Source of the DNA: an uncultured Nitrospirales bacterium
Lineage (GTDB): Bacteria > Nitrospirota > Nitrospiria > Nitrospirales > UBA8639
Assembly: GCA_951812745.1 (NCBI GenBank)
Contig: OX638327.1
Location: 620,001 to 684,000 of the forward strand
DNA length: 64,000 nt
Direction: 5' to 3'
Shown here: piece after piece, positions 37,901 to 46,672 of the stretch
How positions within the stretch are numbered: position 1 is the stretch's first letter
How the letters are laid out: each line of letters begins with the position of its first letter
Notes under the pieces: generated by a model
What the model saw: only the letters and a program-made list of their open reading frames with translations
Told to the model about the DNA's origin: nothing
The model's database searches: none
Made by a program: the position numbers and the translations under genes

Positions 37901-39202
37901 ATGGAAAACAGGAACATGATATTCAGATATATAAGTATATTCTTCTCAGTATTACTACTTTATGTCTTTGCAGGGACGGCCCTGGCGGATGAAGGGGGGG
38001 CGGTGATCAGCGCGGGGGACACGGGATGGCTCCTGACGTCTTCCGCGCTGGTGCTCGCCATGATCATTCCGGGCCTGGCTCTTTTTTACGGCGGGATGGT
38101 GCGCGACAAGAACGTGCTGAGCACCATGATGTACAGTTTCATCTCCGTGTGCGTGGTCAGCGTGGTCTGGGTGTTGTGGGGGTATACCATCGCCTTCGGC
38201 ACGGACGTGGGCGGCATCGTCGGCAGTTTCGAATTTCTGTGGTCGAACGGCGTCGGGCCGGAAGCCTTTCCAGGCACGGCCGTCCCGCATCTTGCCTTCA
38301 TGGTGTTTCAGCTCATGTTCGCGGCGATTACGGTGGCGCTGATCAGCGGGGCCATTGCGGAACGCATGAAGTTCATGGGGTACGTGCTGTTTGCGACCCT
38401 GTGGGTCACCCTCATCTATGCGCCGCTGGCCCATTGGGTCTGGGGCGGCGGATGGCTGGGTGAACTGGGCGCCCTGGACTTTGCCGGCGGCACCGTCGTG
38501 CACATCAGTTCGGGTGTGGCGGCTCTGGCCGCGGCGCTGGTCCTGGGAAAACGGCACGGCCATGGATCCGAAAAGATGGCACCCCATAACCTGCCTTTTA
38601 CCGTGGTCGGGGCGGCCCTGCTCTGGGTGGGATGGTTCGGTTTCAACGCGGGGAGCGCCCTGGCGGCCGATGGAATTGCTGCCGGCGCGTTTGTCGCCAC
38701 CCAGGTGGCCACGTCCGCCGGTGTGTTGGGGTGGCTCGTGGTGGAATGGATGAAGAGCGGCAAACCCACGGCCTTGGGCGGGGCCAGCGGCGCCATTGCC
38801 GGTCTGGTGGCGATTACTCCCGCGGCGGGGTTTGTCGGCCCGATTTCCTCGATTCTGATCGGTTTCGGCGCCGGGGTGTTCTGCTATTTAGCCGTGGTAT
38901 GGAAAGCCAAATTCGGCTATGATGACGCTCTCGATGTATTGGCCATTCACGGCATCGGAGGAACGTGGGGGGCGATCGCCACGGGACTCTTCGCCAGCGT
39001 GGGGGCAACCGGTTTGTTTTTCGGAAATCCGGGGCAGGTGTTCATTCAGGCCGTGGGTGTGGGAGCCACTTGGGTGTTTTCGTTTGTCGGAACCTTTATT
39101 ATTTTGAAAGTGTTGGATATGGTGATAGGCCTTCGCGTCGGGAAGGACGAGGAAATCGTCGGACTTGATCTGAGCGAACATAGCGAACGCGCATATACAT
39201 AG
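37901..39202 (+). CDS. amtB: Ammonium transporter (Amt), first copy
   Basis: 433 residues with a cleavable signal peptide (about 1-29, ending ALADEGG) and eleven membrane helices, as in E. coli AmtB. Motifs: DTGWLLTSSALVLAMIIPGL, LALFYGGMVRDKNVLS, PLAHWVWGGGWL, DFAGGTVVHISSGVAALA and the pore histidine region FDDALD-like YDDALDVLAIHGIGG. The cytoplasmic tail is short. A P-II gene follows 107 bases on, so GlnK can block the pore when nitrogen is plentiful. AGGAGGG lies before the ATG. Confidence 0.95.
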   Translation: MENRNMIFRYISIFFSVLLLYVFAGTALADEGGAVISAGDTGWLLTSSALVLAMIIPGLALFYGGMVRDKNVLSTMMYSFISVCVVSVVWVLWGYTIAFGTDVGGIVGSFEFLWSNGVGPEAFPGTAVPHLAFMVFQLMFAAITVALISGAIAERMKFMGYVLFATLWVTLIYAPLAHWVWGGGWLGELGALDFAGGTVVHISSGVAALAAALVLGKRHGHGSEKMAPHNLPFTVVGAALLWVGWFGFNAGSALAADGIAAGAFVATQVATSAGVLGWLVVEWMKSGKPTALGGASGAIAGLVAITPAAGFVGPISSILIGFGAGVFCYLAVVWKAKFGYDDALDVLAIHGIGGTWGAIATGLFASVGATGLFFGNPGQVFIQAVGVGATWVFSFVGTFIILKVLDMVIGLRVGKDEEIVGLDLSEHSERAYT

Positions 39203-39238: not shown

Positions 39239-39648
<410 letters not shown>

Positions 39649-39827: not shown

Positions 39828-41126
39828 GTGAAGCACTCGACCTTTTCATTCATGTGGCTGTTGGTTGTAATTTTGAGCGTCTGTGGCGGGCCGGCAACCG
39901 TATGGGCCCAGGACGGGACCCCCGGAGCCATTGATACGGGTGATACGGCGTGGATCCTGGTGTCGTCCGCATTCGTCTTGTGTATGACCTTGCCCGGGTT
40001 GGCGCTCTTTTATGGCGGGCTTGTCCGGAGCAAGAACGTACTCGGGACGCTGATGCATACCGCCATCATTCTGTGCTTGATCAGCATCGTGTGGGTCCTG
40101 CTTGGCTATACATTGGCGTTCGGCACGGACGTGGGCGGAGTGATCGGCAGTCTGGAATTTCTTTTCTCCCTGGGCGTGGGACAGGACGCCTATCCCGGCA
40201 CCGGCATCCCACATTTGGCCTTTATGGTGTTTCAACTCATGTTCGCCGCCATCACCGTGGCGCTGATCACCGGCAGCTTTGCCGAACGGATGAAATTTAC
40301 GGCGTTGCTGCTGTTTGCCGTGCTCTGGTCGGTCCTGATTTATTCGCCTCTGGCCCATTGGGTGTGGGGGGGAGGCTGGCTGGCGGAGATGGGCGCATTG
40401 GACTTTGCCGGAGGGGCCGTCGTGCATATCAGTTCAGGTTTCGCCGCCCTCGTCTGTGCGCTGATGTTGGGACAACGGAAAGGCTACGGGGTTGAGTCCA
40501 TGGTGCCACACAACCTTCCCATGACGGTCCTGGGGACGGGCCTGTTGTGGTTCGGGTGGTTTGGCTTCAACGCGGGAAGCGCCCTGGGCGCCAACGGAGG
40601 CGCGGCTTCAGCCTTTGTCGCCACGCATATTGCGGCTTGCGCCGGCGGGTTCAGTTGGATGGGCGCGGAATGGCTGCGGACCGGCAAACCCACCGTGCTG
40701 GGGTTGGCGAGCGGCATCATCGCGGGCCTGGCCACCATTACTCCCGGAGCCGGGTTCGTTTCACCTTTGGCGGCGTTACTGATCGGCCTCGTGGCCGGCG
40801 TCGTCTGTTACGCCGCGGTTGTCCTGAAAATCAGACTCGGGTACGATGATTCGCTCGACGTGGTGGCCATTCACGGCGTCGGCGGGTTTACCGGGATCCT
40901 GGCTACCGGGATCTTCGCGTCCGTCGGGGCCCAGGGCTTACTGTACGGAAACCCGGGTCAATTCGTGATTCAGTTCGTGCTGGCCGTTTCCACGCTCGTG
41001 TTTGTCGTGGTCGGCACCTTTGTGATTTTGAAAGTCGTCGACCTGGTGGTCGGCCTTCGAGTGTCGTCTGAGGAGGAAGAAATCGGGCTCGATTTGAGTC
41101 AACATAGTGAGCGCGCCTATTCTTGA
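39828..41126 (+). CDS. amtB: Ammonium transporter (Amt), second copy
   Basis: 432 residues, closely parallel to the first copy: signal peptide (about 1-27, ending TVWAQDG), DTAWILVSSAFVLCMTLPGL, LALFYGGLVRSKNVLG, PLAHWVWGGGWLAEMGALDF, HISSGFAAL and YDDSLDVVAIHGVGG. The start is a GTG at 39828 with AGAGGTGG in front. The identical C-terminal DLSQHSERAYS/DLSEHSERAYT of the two copies shows they are duplicates. Having one copy on each side of glnK suggests differential control or different affinity, which sequence cannot decide. Confidence 0.95.
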   Translation: MKHSTFSFMWLLVVILSVCGGPATVWAQDGTPGAIDTGDTAWILVSSAFVLCMTLPGLALFYGGLVRSKNVLGTLMHTAIILCLISIVWVLLGYTLAFGTDVGGVIGSLEFLFSLGVGQDAYPGTGIPHLAFMVFQLMFAAITVALITGSFAERMKFTALLLFAVLWSVLIYSPLAHWVWGGGWLAEMGALDFAGGAVVHISSGFAALVCALMLGQRKGYGVESMVPHNLPMTVLGTGLLWFGWFGFNAGSALGANGGAASAFVATHIAACAGGFSWMGAEWLRTGKPTVLGLASGIIAGLATITPGAGFVSPLAALLIGLVAGVVCYAAVVLKIRLGYDDSLDVVAIHGVGGFTGILATGIFASVGAQGLLYGNPGQFVIQFVLAVSTLVFVVVGTFVILKVVDLVVGLRVSSEEEEIGLDLSQHSERAYS

Positions 41127-41180: not shown

Positions 41181-42590
41181 ATGACTCCGCGTGAGGTGTT
41201 GGATTTTGCCAAAAAGAACAAGGTGGAAATAGTCGATCTCAAATTTGTGGACCTGGTCGGGACGTGGCAGCATTTTTCCACCCCGACCTCTGAACTGACA
41301 CTTGATTTATTTAAGGATGGCGCGGGATTTGACGGGTCGTCCATCCGCGGATGGAAAGCGATTCAGAACAGCGACATGCTGGTCTTTCCCGATCCGAACA
41401 CCGCCCGCCTGGATCCGTTTACCGAACTTCCAACTCTCAGCATGGTGTGTAACGTGCAAGATCCGATCACGCGTGCCGTCTACGAGCGCGACCCGCGAGG
41501 CGTGGCGCAACGGGCGGAACAGTACCTGAAGAACACCAGAATCGGCGACCTCTCCTATTGGGGGCCCGAAGCCGAGTTCTTTATTTTTGATCATGCCAGT
41601 TATGACCAAACCAGCAATTCGGGATATTATTTCATCGACTCCGAGGAGGGGATTTGGAATTCAGGCGAAGACGGGCACAATTTGGGATCACGTCCCCGGC
41701 ATAAGGAAGGCTATTTCCCCGTTCCTCCGACGGATACACAACAGGATATCCGCTCCGAAATGATCAGGGAGATGGAAAAAGCCGGGATGCGCGTTGAAAA
41801 ACACCACCACGAAGTGGCCACGGCGGGGCAGGCGGAAATCGATCTTCGTTTTGATACCTTGCTGAGCATGGCCGACAAAATGATGATGTACAAGTATATC
41901 GTCAAAAACGTGGCCCGGCGGCACAACAAGACCGCGACGTTTATGCCGAAACCATTGTTCCAGGACAACGGAACGGGCATGCATACCCATCAGAGCATCT
42001 GGAAGGACGGGAAGCCGACGTTCGCCGGTAAGGAATACGCGGGCGTTTCGAAAAATTGTCTGTATTACATCGGCGGCGTCCTGAAGCATGCTGCGGCCCT
42101 GGCGGCGTTCACGAATCCGACGACCAATTCCTATAAACGGTTGACCCCGGGATTCGAGGCTCCCGTGTTGTTGGCGTATTCCAGCCGGAACCGGTCGGCC
42201 GGGATCCGGATTCCGATGTATTCGCCCAACCCGAAGGCCAAACGGATCGAAGTGCGCTTTCCCGATCCCTCGGCTAATTGCTATCTGGCGTTCAGCGCCA
42301 TGCTGATGGCCGGGCTCGACGGCATTCAGAACAAGATCGACCCGGGCGAAGCCATGGACAAAAATCTCTACGATCTGGCACCGGAAGAAGCCTCGAATAT
42401 TCCAACCGTTCCCGGAAGTTTGGATGAAGCCCTCGATAACCTGGAAAACGACTATCAGTTTCTGTTAAAGGGCGGCGTCTTCAGCGAAGACCTGGTGGAA
42501 GCCTGGCTCAGCTATAAGCGGGAAAACGAAGCCGATGAGGTCCGCATTCGCCCTCATCCGCATGAATTCTTTCTGTACTACGATATTTAA
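41181..42590 (+). CDS. glnA: Glutamine synthetase type I, adenylylation-controlled
   Basis: 469 residues, the type I-beta length. GlnA joins ammonia and glutamate. Motifs: [41 protein letters not shown] (catalytic loop), [10 protein letters not shown] and [20 protein letters not shown]. The adenylylation site NLYDL places the tyrosine at residue 397, the same number as in E. coli, so activity should be shut off by AMP addition from the split GlnE proteins encoded next door. GGAGG precedes the ATG. A strong hairpin ends the operon. Confidence 0.97.
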
Positions 42591-42712: not shown

Positions 42713-44995
42713 CTACTTCCGCGTGCTTTTCCCGGATGGCTTTCGGCGAAACAGTTTGACGAATATGGCATGTGTCCGGTTCATTCGTTCGTGCAACTCG
42801 CGTTCAAACGCCCGTGTGCCTTCCTGCCAGACGTCGGTGACATACCCCAATCGCCTGGCCAGATACGTCATGTCGTCGGAGCCGGGTTCCGGCAGCACCA
42901 GGTCCTTGGCGTTTCCCCGGACGATCCGCAATCCGTCGATGACCTTTCTCATGAACAGATAGTCTTCCATCAGGATCGTCGCGTCCCGGCGTGCGAGCAG
43001 CGTTGTCTCTTGAAGGGCCTCGAGCGCTTGCAGGGTGTTGGGTGTCCGGAGTGACGGCTCCCGGTGGCCATGCCGGACTTGCAGGTATTGCGCGGTGTAT
43101 TCGATGTCGATGAGTCCGCCCGGACTGTATTTCACGTGAATCGTTCCGCCGGGAACCAACTCCTGCATCTGCCTGCGGCGCAGGTGCAACGCCTCGTCCA
43201 GCGGCCACGGCGCCCGCCCGTACACGAAGTCGTCGCGGTAGCGTTCGATGCGACGGCCCAGCGCGGCATTCCCCGCGACGTGTCGCAGCTTGATCCACGC
43301 CTGCCTCTCAAACGGCGCGGCGGCTCCTCCCGTCCGGTAATAACGCTTGACGTCTTCAAATGAATTCGCCAGCAGGCCTTTTTCTCCGTGAGGCCGCAGC
43401 CTGATGTCCAGTTGAAAAATTCCTTCCTGTTTCGCCTCGATCCACTGAAGCAATTCCTGTACGAGCCGCTCGTAGTATTCGCCGATCGTGGGATCGGGGA
43501 CACCGGCGGCACCCGTTTCATAGATAAAGACCAACTCGATATCAGAGGCATAGCCCAACTCGCGACCGCCCAATTTGCCCAATCCGCCGATACTGAACGG
43601 TAGAGAACTCTTCTTGAGCGCAGACGGCGGCGGGTGTTTTCGATTGACCACTGACTGGGCCTCGATAAGCGCTTGTGCTAAGATTACTTCGGCCAGGGTC
43701 GTGAGAGATTTGGAGAAGTCGGGGAGAGACGTGTCGTTGAGAATATGATGCATGTCGATACGAAACAGTTCCCGGTCCTTGAACCGGTTCAGGAGCCCCT
43801 TGCGGATTTCGGATTTCCTGCTCTTTCCGAGTCCGGCCTTCAACGCCTTGACGAGCGCGGTTTTTGATGAACGGGTCCGGGATTGGTGAAACGTTTCAAC
43901 CATGGCCAGGAGGTTGACGTGTTGCCGGCGCAGGAAGTCTTCCCACAGGAAGTCGCTCGTGCCGAATAACCGGGCCAGGTTGGCCAACGAATCTTTTTGG
44001 GTGAGCCATTTGATCTGTTTCTTGCTGAGCTGCTGTTCCAGCAACTGGTCGAGGAAATGACTGAAATGGTTCAAGGCCTTGCCGGGGTCCGGGGCCCAGG
44101 TGAGGTAATGGGTAAATTCCTTGATAAGGGCCGCGGCCACGGTCAGTTCCTGTTGCTCCTGTGTCGCCACGATTTTCTGCCCGTGCCGGTCTCTGACGAA
44201 AAATCGGTTGCGGACCCTCAGCCCGTCTCCTTCGATCGTGGCTTTTGATATATAGAGCCCTCTCATGGTCAACGCATTCGTAAAGGCGTACAAAAATGCC
44301 GGTGAATCCGTACCCTTGATGTCTATGACCGTTTCTCGCGGGGAAAGCGCATTGTTGAAGAGAATTTCCACGGGATACACCGGCGCGGCGGCTGTTTTCT
44401 TTTGTCCAAGCGTTTCGACCAATTTCCGGTTGACACGATTCCGGACCTCCTGGATGTTGCGTGACCCGAGCGATCGGATCATGACCGTCAATTCCCGGCC
44501 CAGTTCTTTTTCAACGTCCGCATTGAATGCGACGCCCGGGAGAAGATGAACCTGAAAGACGTCCACGACCTTTTTTCTTGACAGCCCCGGCCGCTCGGGG
44601 CGCCGGCGTTTCGGCCATTTGGATGCCTGCGCCCGACGAAAGGATGTGAAGGCAGGGGAAGGAGCGGGATCGTCCCGGTACGTAAAAACATGCGCTTCGC
44701 GTATATCGAAGCCGTAGGCAGACAGCAGCCCGCACATTGTGGCAAATTCCGCAAAATAGTCGTAGGCGACGACCGTGAACCTGTACCGACCTGCATCGTT
44801 GACCGGTTGCACGTGGAGCGTGCAGGGAGATTCCAGGGTAAGACTGTCGGCCAACCCCACGTGTTTCGCAACGGTCCGCGGTGGGAACTGCGAGAAATAA
44901 TCCGGATCCATGCGATCGAGAAAGTCTTTGATCACCGCCGGGTCGACCTGGGGGGACAGCCTTTCCAATTCCGTCGAGTCGAACGTCTTTTTCAT
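42713..44995 (-). CDS. GlnE C-terminal-type adenylyltransferase fused to tandem ACT domains
   Basis: 760 residues. The first 300 contain two ACT-like domains: RFTVVAYDYFAEFATMCGLL (about 70-125) and ETVIDIKGTDSPAFLYAFTN (about 225-285), resembling the C-terminal glutamine-sensing ACT pair of GlnD. Then follows one complete GlnE-type nucleotidyltransferase module with LGKLGGRELGYASDIELVF, LDIRLRPHGEKGLLANSF and KYSPGGLIDIEYTAQYLQ. These match the C-terminal (adenylylating) half of E. coli GlnE. The last metal-site residue is Glu instead of Asp (SDIEL). It is convergent with glnA and divergent from the other GlnE half. Confidence 0.85.
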   Translation of the reverse strand: MKKTFDSTELERLSPQVDPAVIKDFLDRMDPDYFSQFPPRTVAKHVGLADSLTLESPCTLHVQPVNDAGRYRFTVVAYDYFAEFATMCGLLSAYGFDIREAHVFTYRDDPAPSPAFTSFRRAQASKWPKRRRPERPGLSRKKVVDVFQVHLLPGVAFNADVEKELGRELTVMIRSLGSRNIQEVRNRVNRKLVETLGQKKTAAAPVYPVEILFNNALSPRETVIDIKGTDSPAFLYAFTNALTMRGLYISKATIEGDGLRVRNRFFVRDRHGQKIVATQEQQELTVAAALIKEFTHYLTWAPDPGKALNHFSHFLDQLLEQQLSKKQIKWLTQKDSLANLARLFGTSDFLWEDFLRRQHVNLLAMVETFHQSRTRSSKTALVKALKAGLGKSRKSEIRKGLLNRFKDRELFRIDMHHILNDTSLPDFSKSLTTLAEVILAQALIEAQSVVNRKHPPPSALKKSSLPFSIGGLGKLGGRELGYASDIELVFIYETGAAGVPDPTIGEYYERLVQELLQWIEAKQEGIFQLDIRLRPHGEKGLLANSFEDVKRYYRTGGAAAPFERQAWIKLRHVAGNAALGRRIERYRDDFVYGRAPWPLDEALHLRRRQMQELVPGGTIHVKYSPGGLIDIEYTAQYLQVRHGHREPSLRTPNTLQALEALQETTLLARRDATILMEDYLFMRKVIDGLRIVRGNAKDLVLPEPGSDDMTYLARRLGYVTDVWQEGTRAFERELHERMNRTHAIFVKLFRRKPSGKSTRK

Positions 44996-45070
44996 GGCAG
45001 GGCGGTATCCCGTAACGTGTTAACCTTGTAAGGGCCATGTAGCCTCACACGTTTGTCAAAGGTAGTCTCG

Positions 45071-46672
45071 ATGTCCATCATCAGCAACCCATCCTCAGGC
45101 TATGACCCTCGTCCTTTGTTGCTTTCCCCGGACTTGGGACCAGCGGAAGTCCGCCGGCTCTTGGCTCCGTACGGGTTCCATGACTGGAAACAAGCCGATG
45201 CCAACCTTCAACTCATGGCCGGTGATCCTCGAAGCCGGAAACTACTGGCCGGCATCCTTCCCGATCTCCTGCACGCGGTTTCGGTCACCGCCGACCCGGA
45301 CCAGGCGTTGCGCGAATGGGAACGATATCTCGACGCCGGTCACGCACGAGCCCAAGTGTTTGGTTTTTTAGCGCAAGTACCCCACGTCATGCAATTGCTT
45401 TGCGTCCTGTTCGGGAATAGTCCCGCGATGGCGGAAACGCTCATTCGAGATCCCATGCTGGTTTACTGGATCGAGGGAGAGCGCGTTCTCAAGAGCCCTC
45501 CCACTCCCAGACGCCTCCAGGCGGCGTTGGACAAGAGCCTCAATCTCGTCCGAACCTACGAACGCAAGCTTGATGCCCTTCGACGCTTTCATCGCCGTGA
45601 AATGCTCCGTATCGGTGCGAGGGACCTCTTCCATGTTTCGCCGGTCGAGGAGACCGTTCGATCCCTGTCTCGACTCGCGGAAGTCGTGATCCACGCCGCG
45701 TACCGCCTCGTGAACGACAAACTGTGCAGGCAATACGGAATTCCCCTTCATCGCGATACCGGATTGAGAAAACATGAAACGGGATTCGTGGTATTGGGCA
45801 TGGGAAAACTGGGTGGCGGTGAACTGAATTACAGCTCCGATGTGGATCTCATCTATTTGTACTCGCCGGGCGACAGGCGGACCAGGTCCGCAAAAAGGCC
45901 GATCAGCAATGAAGCGTTCTTTCAGATCATTGCGGTTGAACTCACGCGAGTCCTGTCGGCTTCCACTTCGGAAGGATGCCTGTTCCGGGTGGATTTGCGC
46001 CTGCGGCCCGAGGGATCAATCGGACCATTGGTCTGGTCGAACCGTGAAGCCGTAAAATACTACCCGACGCGCGGCAGGACCTGGGAACGGCTGGCTCTGT
46101 TGAAAGCTCGCCCGGTTGCGGGGCAACGGTCCCTGGGGCACGCATTTCTCAGGAACATCCGGCCGTTTGTCGTGGGGCCGGAAGAACCGGACGAGCGACA
46201 CGTCATCGACACGGTTCTCGAACTCAGGGCGCGGATTCATGACACCCTCCGGCGCAAAAAGGAGCATGAGCGCAACGTCAAACTCAGTCCGGGAGGAATT
46301 CGCGACATTGAATTCATCGTCCAGACGCTTCAACTACTGCACGCTGCCACGCACCCGCAACTGCTCGAGGCGAATACGGTCGCGGGCCTGCAACGTCTCC
46401 GCACCCTGAAGCTCCTGTCTGATGGTGACGGTCGATTCCTGGAGGAAGCCTACGTGTTTTTGCGTGACGTCGAACATAAACTGCAAATGGTCCATGAACT
46501 CCAGACCCATACCCTGCCGGTCAGGCCTTCCCAATTGACCAGATGCGCCATCCGCATGGGCTACACGGAACAACCGCGTTCGTCCGCGACCACGAGATTT
46601 CTCACCCGCTATGAATCAGTCAGGGCCCGTGTTCAAGCCATCTGTGAACGGATGCTGTCTTCATCCATCTGA
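45071..46672 (+). CDS. GlnE N-terminal-type adenylyl-removing half
   Basis: 533 residues, one nucleotidyltransferase module. LGMGKLGGGELNYSSDVDLI, RVDLRLRPEGSIGPLVWSN, RGRTWERLALLKARPVAG and KLSPGGIRDIEFIVQTLQ correspond to the N-terminal (deadenylylating) half of E. coli GlnE. It lacks ACT domains. Together with the divergent gene 75 bases away it replaces the usual single 940-residue GlnE. ATG 45071 has AAGG eight bases upstream; a TTG at 45053 is possible. Both proteins would act on Tyr397 of GlnA, one adding and one removing AMP, if the homology holds. Confidence 0.88.
   Translation: MSIISNPSSGYDPRPLLLSPDLGPAEVRRLLAPYGFHDWKQADANLQLMAGDPRSRKLLAGILPDLLHAVSVTADPDQALREWERYLDAGHARAQVFGFLAQVPHVMQLLCVLFGNSPAMAETLIRDPMLVYWIEGERVLKSPPTPRRLQAALDKSLNLVRTYERKLDALRRFHRREMLRIGARDLFHVSPVEETVRSLSRLAEVVIHAAYRLVNDKLCRQYGIPLHRDTGLRKHETGFVVLGMGKLGGGELNYSSDVDLIYLYSPGDRRTRSAKRPISNEAFFQIIAVELTRVLSASTSEGCLFRVDLRLRPEGSIGPLVWSNREAVKYYPTRGRTWERLALLKARPVAGQRSLGHAFLRNIRPFVVGPEEPDERHVIDTVLELRARIHDTLRRKKEHERNVKLSPGGIRDIEFIVQTLQLLHAATHPQLLEANTVAGLQRLRTLKLLSDGDGRFLEEAYVFLRDVEHKLQMVHELQTHTLPVRPSQLTRCAIRMGYTEQPRSSATTRFLTRYESVRARVQAICERMLSSSI

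Follow-up and report, generated by a model that had tools for sequence, protein, structure and literature searches.

We identified a split form of the glutamine synthetase adenylyltransferase GlnE in the genome of an uncultured Nitrospirales bacterium (assembly GCA_951812745.1, contig OX638327.1; the window analysed here is the 64,000-nucleotide stretch from position 620,001 to 684,000). Two adjacent divergent genes, here referred to as P1 and P2, each encode one GlnE half, and P1 in addition begins with a GlnD-type sensor region. GlnE is a textbook two-headed enzyme whose opposing activities share a single chain, with contact between the halves keeping them in balance. We think it probable, on balance, that P1 and P2 constitute a fissioned version of this system in which (i) P2 is a free adenylyl-removing N half, (ii) P1 is an adenylylating C half with the GlnD sensor at its N terminus, and (iii) the modification of Tyr397 of the adjacent GlnA would be sensor-gated.

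P1 and P2 share with GlnE (PRK11072/NF008292) the succession of nucleotidyltransferase and helical domains: each contains a PF03710 (GlnE) domain, far above cut-off (E 5e-38 and 4e-71, respectively), and, C-terminal to it, the helical PF08335 (GlnD_UR_UTase) domain. The open reading frames and this domain search bear out the first-pass annotation of the window, which had proposed two separate GlnE halves together with their boundaries, divergence and 75-base spacing. P1 and P2 differ from GlnE in that the two nucleotidyltransferase domains are divided between two chains, one PF03710 domain each, and the two proteins reach only 191 and 342 bits against the GlnE equivalog cut-off of 487. With GlnD (TIGR01693/NF003467), P1 shares the full C-terminal region consisting of a linker and two ACT domains. 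Residues 9-285 match positions 607-842 of TIGR01693 (E 5e-17), part of this region matches PRK05092 (E 3e-24), and profile-profile comparison (hhalign) of eight P1 N-termini with nine GlnD tails returned 99.8% probability and E 4e-29 over 249 columns, in line with the ACT pair that had been proposed for the start of this protein. Neither the nucleotidyltransferase nor the HD domain of GlnD was found in P1 by domain search, and ACT1 of P1 has an insert at about residues 107-143 without counterpart in GlnD. The GlnD sensor sits where ordinary GlnE has its first half and, in the alignment, the join is clean, with the last GlnD helix running directly into the GlnE helix that precedes the APDP motif.

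An AlphaFold2 model of P1, for which GlnE C-halves from the loci and two GlnD tails served as input rows, has a predicted local distance difference test score (pLDDT) of mostly 80-98 in the enzyme part. This part matches 1v4a (Z 39.4, root-mean-square deviation 2.8, 418 aligned) and 3k7d (Z 38.1, root-mean-square deviation 4.1, 462 aligned), which represent one half each of E. coli GlnE. The fold search covered the enzyme part alone, and absent ACT hits there carry no meaning. A sequence search of the PDB with the P1 ACT region gave zero matches.

Nearly every well-covered genome of the class to which the window belongs has the split pair. Counted from the table of a phylum-wide search, 117 genomes of the class contain a strong P1 match; the match is weak or missing in at least 15, several of which are small or less complete, consistent with the report of streamlined Great Lakes Nitrospira without glnE (PMC9239080). 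P2 adjoins P1 in 28 of the 28 class loci inspected. In families f1-f4, f7 and f10 the two genes point away from each other, and in f5, f6, f8 and f9 towards each other; therefore, the pairing itself and not a shared promoter region is what is conserved. The convergent arrangement is exemplified by loci L081, L083, L084 and L086 from four families, and in L084 the frames overlap at their 3' ends. In the other classes of the phylum the GlnE domains are paired in one open frame in all 20 genomes sampled. Between close relatives the ratio of nonsynonymous to synonymous substitution rates (dN/dS) is 0.18-0.21 for P1 and P2 and, when the ACT part is taken by itself, 0.21-0.27; thus, both genes are under purifying selection. 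The gene for GlnA adjoins P1 in several relatives. A tblastn search of a plasmid collection with P1 gave no site covering 80% of the query. In two relatives (locus L059 of G041, and G020:C18) a frameshift or deletion interrupts P1, and P2 is likewise interrupted in L059, reflecting either a decayed pair or draft sequencing error.

A relative of P1 is present in a second phylum. Among 395 genomes of what is presumably the phylum containing Geobacteraceae that were searched with the P1 profile, ten have a single open frame of 1269-1319 residues (L230-L239) that aligns with P1 over its full length and continues into a second GlnE half, giving the order ACT-ACT-C-N, the reverse of ordinary GlnE. 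Within the class of one of the ten, the single-chain protein is present in 9 of 56 genomes. In half of the loci (5/10) glnA is the gene immediately upstream, in the same orientation, and the equivalent of Tyr397 is present in all of these GlnA. We refer to the first (probably C-type) and second (N-type) halves as D1 and D2. P1 and this relative have the ACT-ACT-C module in common and form one clade in the enzyme part (100/100) as well as in the ACT part (100/100), where they stand apart from 20 GlnD tails; because the clade is shared by both parts, a single origin of the ACT-C module across the two phyla is the simplest explanation. The module thus comes in two settings, with the N half either as a separate gene or moved behind the C half, and in both the C half has its N terminus free for a sensor. 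In Methylomirabilota (95 genomes) and Nitrospinota (77 genomes) we found ordinary GlnE only and no ACT fusion. In genome G926 of the second phylum, a break at P1 position 568/569 divides the ACT-C-N gene into two pieces (C1:1966412-1968103 and C1:4049355-4049894) that are separated by 2.08 Mb and located on opposite strands, as would result from an inversion or an assembly error. Two loci from other lineages, L241 (G326) and L240 (G337), have a complete glnD that immediately precedes or overlaps a single-chain glnE in the same orientation; such a gene order could give rise to a fusion of a GlnD tail to GlnE.

A tree of 108 half-domains comprising N halves, C halves, P1, P2, D1 and D2 separates N halves, P2 and D2 from C halves, P1 and D1 (support 100/96), with P1 joining the C side through a long branch. 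At eight sites that discriminate N from C halves, P2 has on average 6.3 N-type and 0.3 C-type residues, and P1 3.7 C-type and 2.1 N-type residues; at one of these sites Arg is found in every P1 and Gln in every N half. P2 is clearly of the N-half, i.e. adenylyl-removing, type as judged from its sequence. Based on the best tree and the discriminating residues, our best reading, short of proof, is that P1 is of the C-half, adenylylating type. P1 and P2 do not group with one and the same GlnE half: constraining P1, D1 and P2 to one clade was rejected by the approximately unbiased (AU) test (p 0.024), and a derivation of both proteins from one GlnE half as a single P1-P2 clade is thereby rejected. 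P2 and D2 are separate in the best tree, but their union is not rejected (p 0.27), so the entire pair may have had a single origin.

Combining these data, we suggest that at high glutamine the ACT pair, by itself or together with unmodified P-II, would release P1 to adenylylate GlnA on Tyr397, and that when nitrogen is short P2 would remove AMP from GlnA, presumably stimulated by uridylylated P-II made by a separate full-length GlnD. The catalytic direction of each half, GlnA as the substrate and the P-II inputs are inferred. E. coli GlnE is controlled by P-II, P-II-UMP, glutamine and 2-oxoglutarate (Jiang et al. 2007, as cited in PMC5448240) and the inputs to the split pair may, therefore, be the same and the hardware different.

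Several observations weigh against this model. First, moving P1 and D1 out of the C group or to the N side costs just 1.9 log units relative to the best tree (AU p 0.21); given this p value for an N-side or intermediate placement, phylogeny does not fix the direction of the P1 reaction, and of the half identities proposed in the first-pass annotation that of P2 is firm and that of P1 probable. Second, the ACT part of the model shows the expected order of strands and helices twice, as anticipated for residues 1-300, with a pLDDT mostly below 60, the low confidence being due to just two GlnD tails being usable as rows. Third, 19-20 of 20 GlnD tails have a glycine in the beta1-alpha1 loop, and the corresponding position in P1 is Ser or Ala in 26/28 in ACT1, and Ala in 22/28, Gly in 5/28 and Phe in 1/28 in ACT2; in the P1 of the window it is Ala in both. 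The serine site of PGDH falls at this same position of GlnD (PMC3173338). ACT1 of P1 also has the loop motif DYFAEF versus DxPGLF in GlnD. Fourth, the second metal ligand of P1 is Glu, unlike in every ordinary GlnE half sampled: the triad is D-D-D in 29/29 N halves, 29/29 C halves, P2 and D2, and D-E-D in 27/27 P1 and 10/10 D1.

The changes in the ACT loops bear on the idea that the ACT pair would let glutamine act directly on the adenylylating enzyme. Glutamine is the presumed ligand by likeness to GlnD, the loop glycine is mostly lost, and direct action of glutamine is already established for the E. coli adenylyltransferase; ligand and mode of the P1 ACT pair may differ from those of GlnD. 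It is conceivable, if less probable than not by a clear measure, that P1 is an ACT-bearing adenylyltransferase in which the ACT pair responds to a different amino acid, serves to bind P-II or P2, or just dimerises, with glutamine entering through GlnD and P-II alone. The replaced loop glycines and the retention of a complete GlnD in the genome fit such a scheme; that the whole GlnD sensor region is preserved in register from the linker to the last helix, in two phyla and under purifying selection, argues against it. More speculatively, the ACT-ACT-(D-x-E) module might be a distinct one-way, effector-gated type of nucleotidyltransferase in the GlnE/GlnD superfamily that arose once, spread between the two phyla and is functional only once released from the N-type half, whether by being a separate protein or by reversal of the order; its reaction, partner or nucleotide could then differ from that of the E. 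coli C half. We regard this as unlikely, though worth bearing in mind.

The glutamate in the active site raises the question whether P1 catalyses at all. In principle, P1 could have lost or altered its catalysis and be a regulatory partner, with P2 alone performing both reactions, and the consistent D-x-E of P1 and D1 against the D-x-D of ordinary halves would fit this. Nevertheless, neither the three carboxylates nor the motifs around them vary among 27 P1, and D-x-E is, as is generally known, found in active aminoglycoside nucleotidyltransferases that transfer AMP, where Glu52 of ANT(4') occupies the position. The fold matches of the P1 enzyme model include ANT(4'), among them an E52D mutant. 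Because D-x-E lies within the range of active nucleotidyltransferases, we read the P1 site as changed and not dead, and consider the regulatory-partner explanation doubtful. Alternatively, P1 might modify another target, P-II or some other protein, or use another nucleotide, and leave GlnA to P2. The distinct active-site signature, the long branch and the modification of P-II by nucleotidyltransferases of the GlnD family speak for this, and the tight linkage to glnA in two phyla, the presence of a separate full GlnD and the lack of any other GlnE speak against it, making it marginally more doubtful still. Finally, a broken gene or an assembly artefact, recalling the frameshifted copies in a few relatives (L059, G020; none in the window), has next to no probability and is excluded by the closed genome, the class-wide conservation of the pair in either orientation and the dN/dS of about 0.2; the latter two also speak against a chance arrangement. 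Overall, we favor the fissioned GlnE system.

Table 1. Coordinates of P1, P2 and neighbouring genes within the window.
Feature	Position	Strand	Details
P1, GlnD-type sensor tail (linker-ACT-ACT) and probable C-type GlnE half	42713..44995	-	760 aa; ATG start; putative GlnA adenylyltransferase
P2, N-type GlnE half	45071..46672	+	533 aa from ATG; putative adenylyl-removing enzyme; D-D-D triad
Divergent intergenic region between P1 and P2 starts	44996..45070		75 bp
P1 residues 9-285, sensor of the GlnD C terminus in full, from post-HD linker through ACT1 to ACT2	44141..44971	-	TIGR01693 match; hhalign to GlnD tails
P1 ACT1 (residues 71-150)	44546..44785	-	alignment; loop counts; strand/helix order in low-confidence model
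P1 ACT2 (residues 207-285)	44141..44377	-	loop motif DSPAFLY; PF24931 below cut-off; alignment
P1 GlnE nucleotidyltransferase domain (residues 338-584)	43244..43984	-	metal triad D485, E487, D530; PF03710 E 5e-38
P1 helical GlnD_UR_UTase domain (residues 620-749)	42749..43138	-	PF08335 E 7e-14
glnA, type I glutamine synthetase	41181..42590	+	Tyr397 present (NLYDLAPEE); sole GlnA in genome
glnK/glnB-type P-II protein	39310..39648	+	T-loop tyrosine (GTEYQIDF); PF00543 E 8e-32
Ammonium transporter gene (amtB-type), first copy	37901..39202	+	sequence; synteny
Ammonium transporter gene (amtB-type), second copy	39828..41126	+	sequence; synteny

The coordinates of the features are listed in Table 1; for P2, a TTG 18 bases upstream of the ATG is a possible alternative start. 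The gene for GlnA is convergent with P1, and an amt gene, glnK and a second amt gene lie upstream of it. The target tyrosine noted in the first-pass annotation is present in this GlnA. The 2.35-Mb genome, closed in one contig, encodes one GlnA and one complete GlnD (a 962-residue frame at 1.54 Mb), and contains no single-chain GlnE.

Besides GlnD, the only GlnE-type enzymes of the genome are P1, P2 and an 830-residue protein (L261:1142-3634, + strand; G000 C1 at about 2189.6-2192.1 kb) in which a PF00487 membrane fatty-acid desaturase/AlkB-type hydroxylase domain (E 3e-11) is combined with a degenerate GlnE domain (GlnE nucleotidyltransferase E 1e-10, PF08335 E 5e-4) with an altered metal motif (ELDVVF). 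Relatives of this protein are present in G001:C28 and G012:C25. A GlnE-like domain on a lipid- or alkane-oxidising enzyme was unexpected.

In Nitrospira moscoviensis, the adjacent genes NITMOv2_1289 and NITMOv2_1290 have been named GlnE (PMC6131200) and, as matched by annotation and not by sequence, are most likely the same pair as P1 and P2; we found no mention in the literature of a split, of ACT domains or of an active-site change in these proteins. More generally, our survey of the open-access literature, with subscription papers outside its scope, found no earlier description beyond annotation of a split GlnE, an ACT-bearing GlnE or the reversed form.

These observations imply that the class containing the main nitrite oxidisers and the complete ammonia oxidisers, which we infer to be Nitrospiria, runs the GlnE switch from separate genes. 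The split pair makes it possible to test directly whether glutamine synthetase can be controlled without a covalent link between the two activities, and lets one ask what GlnD-type ACT domains sense outside GlnD. It also bears on how these organisms set the assimilation of ammonium against the use of ammonia as an energy source.

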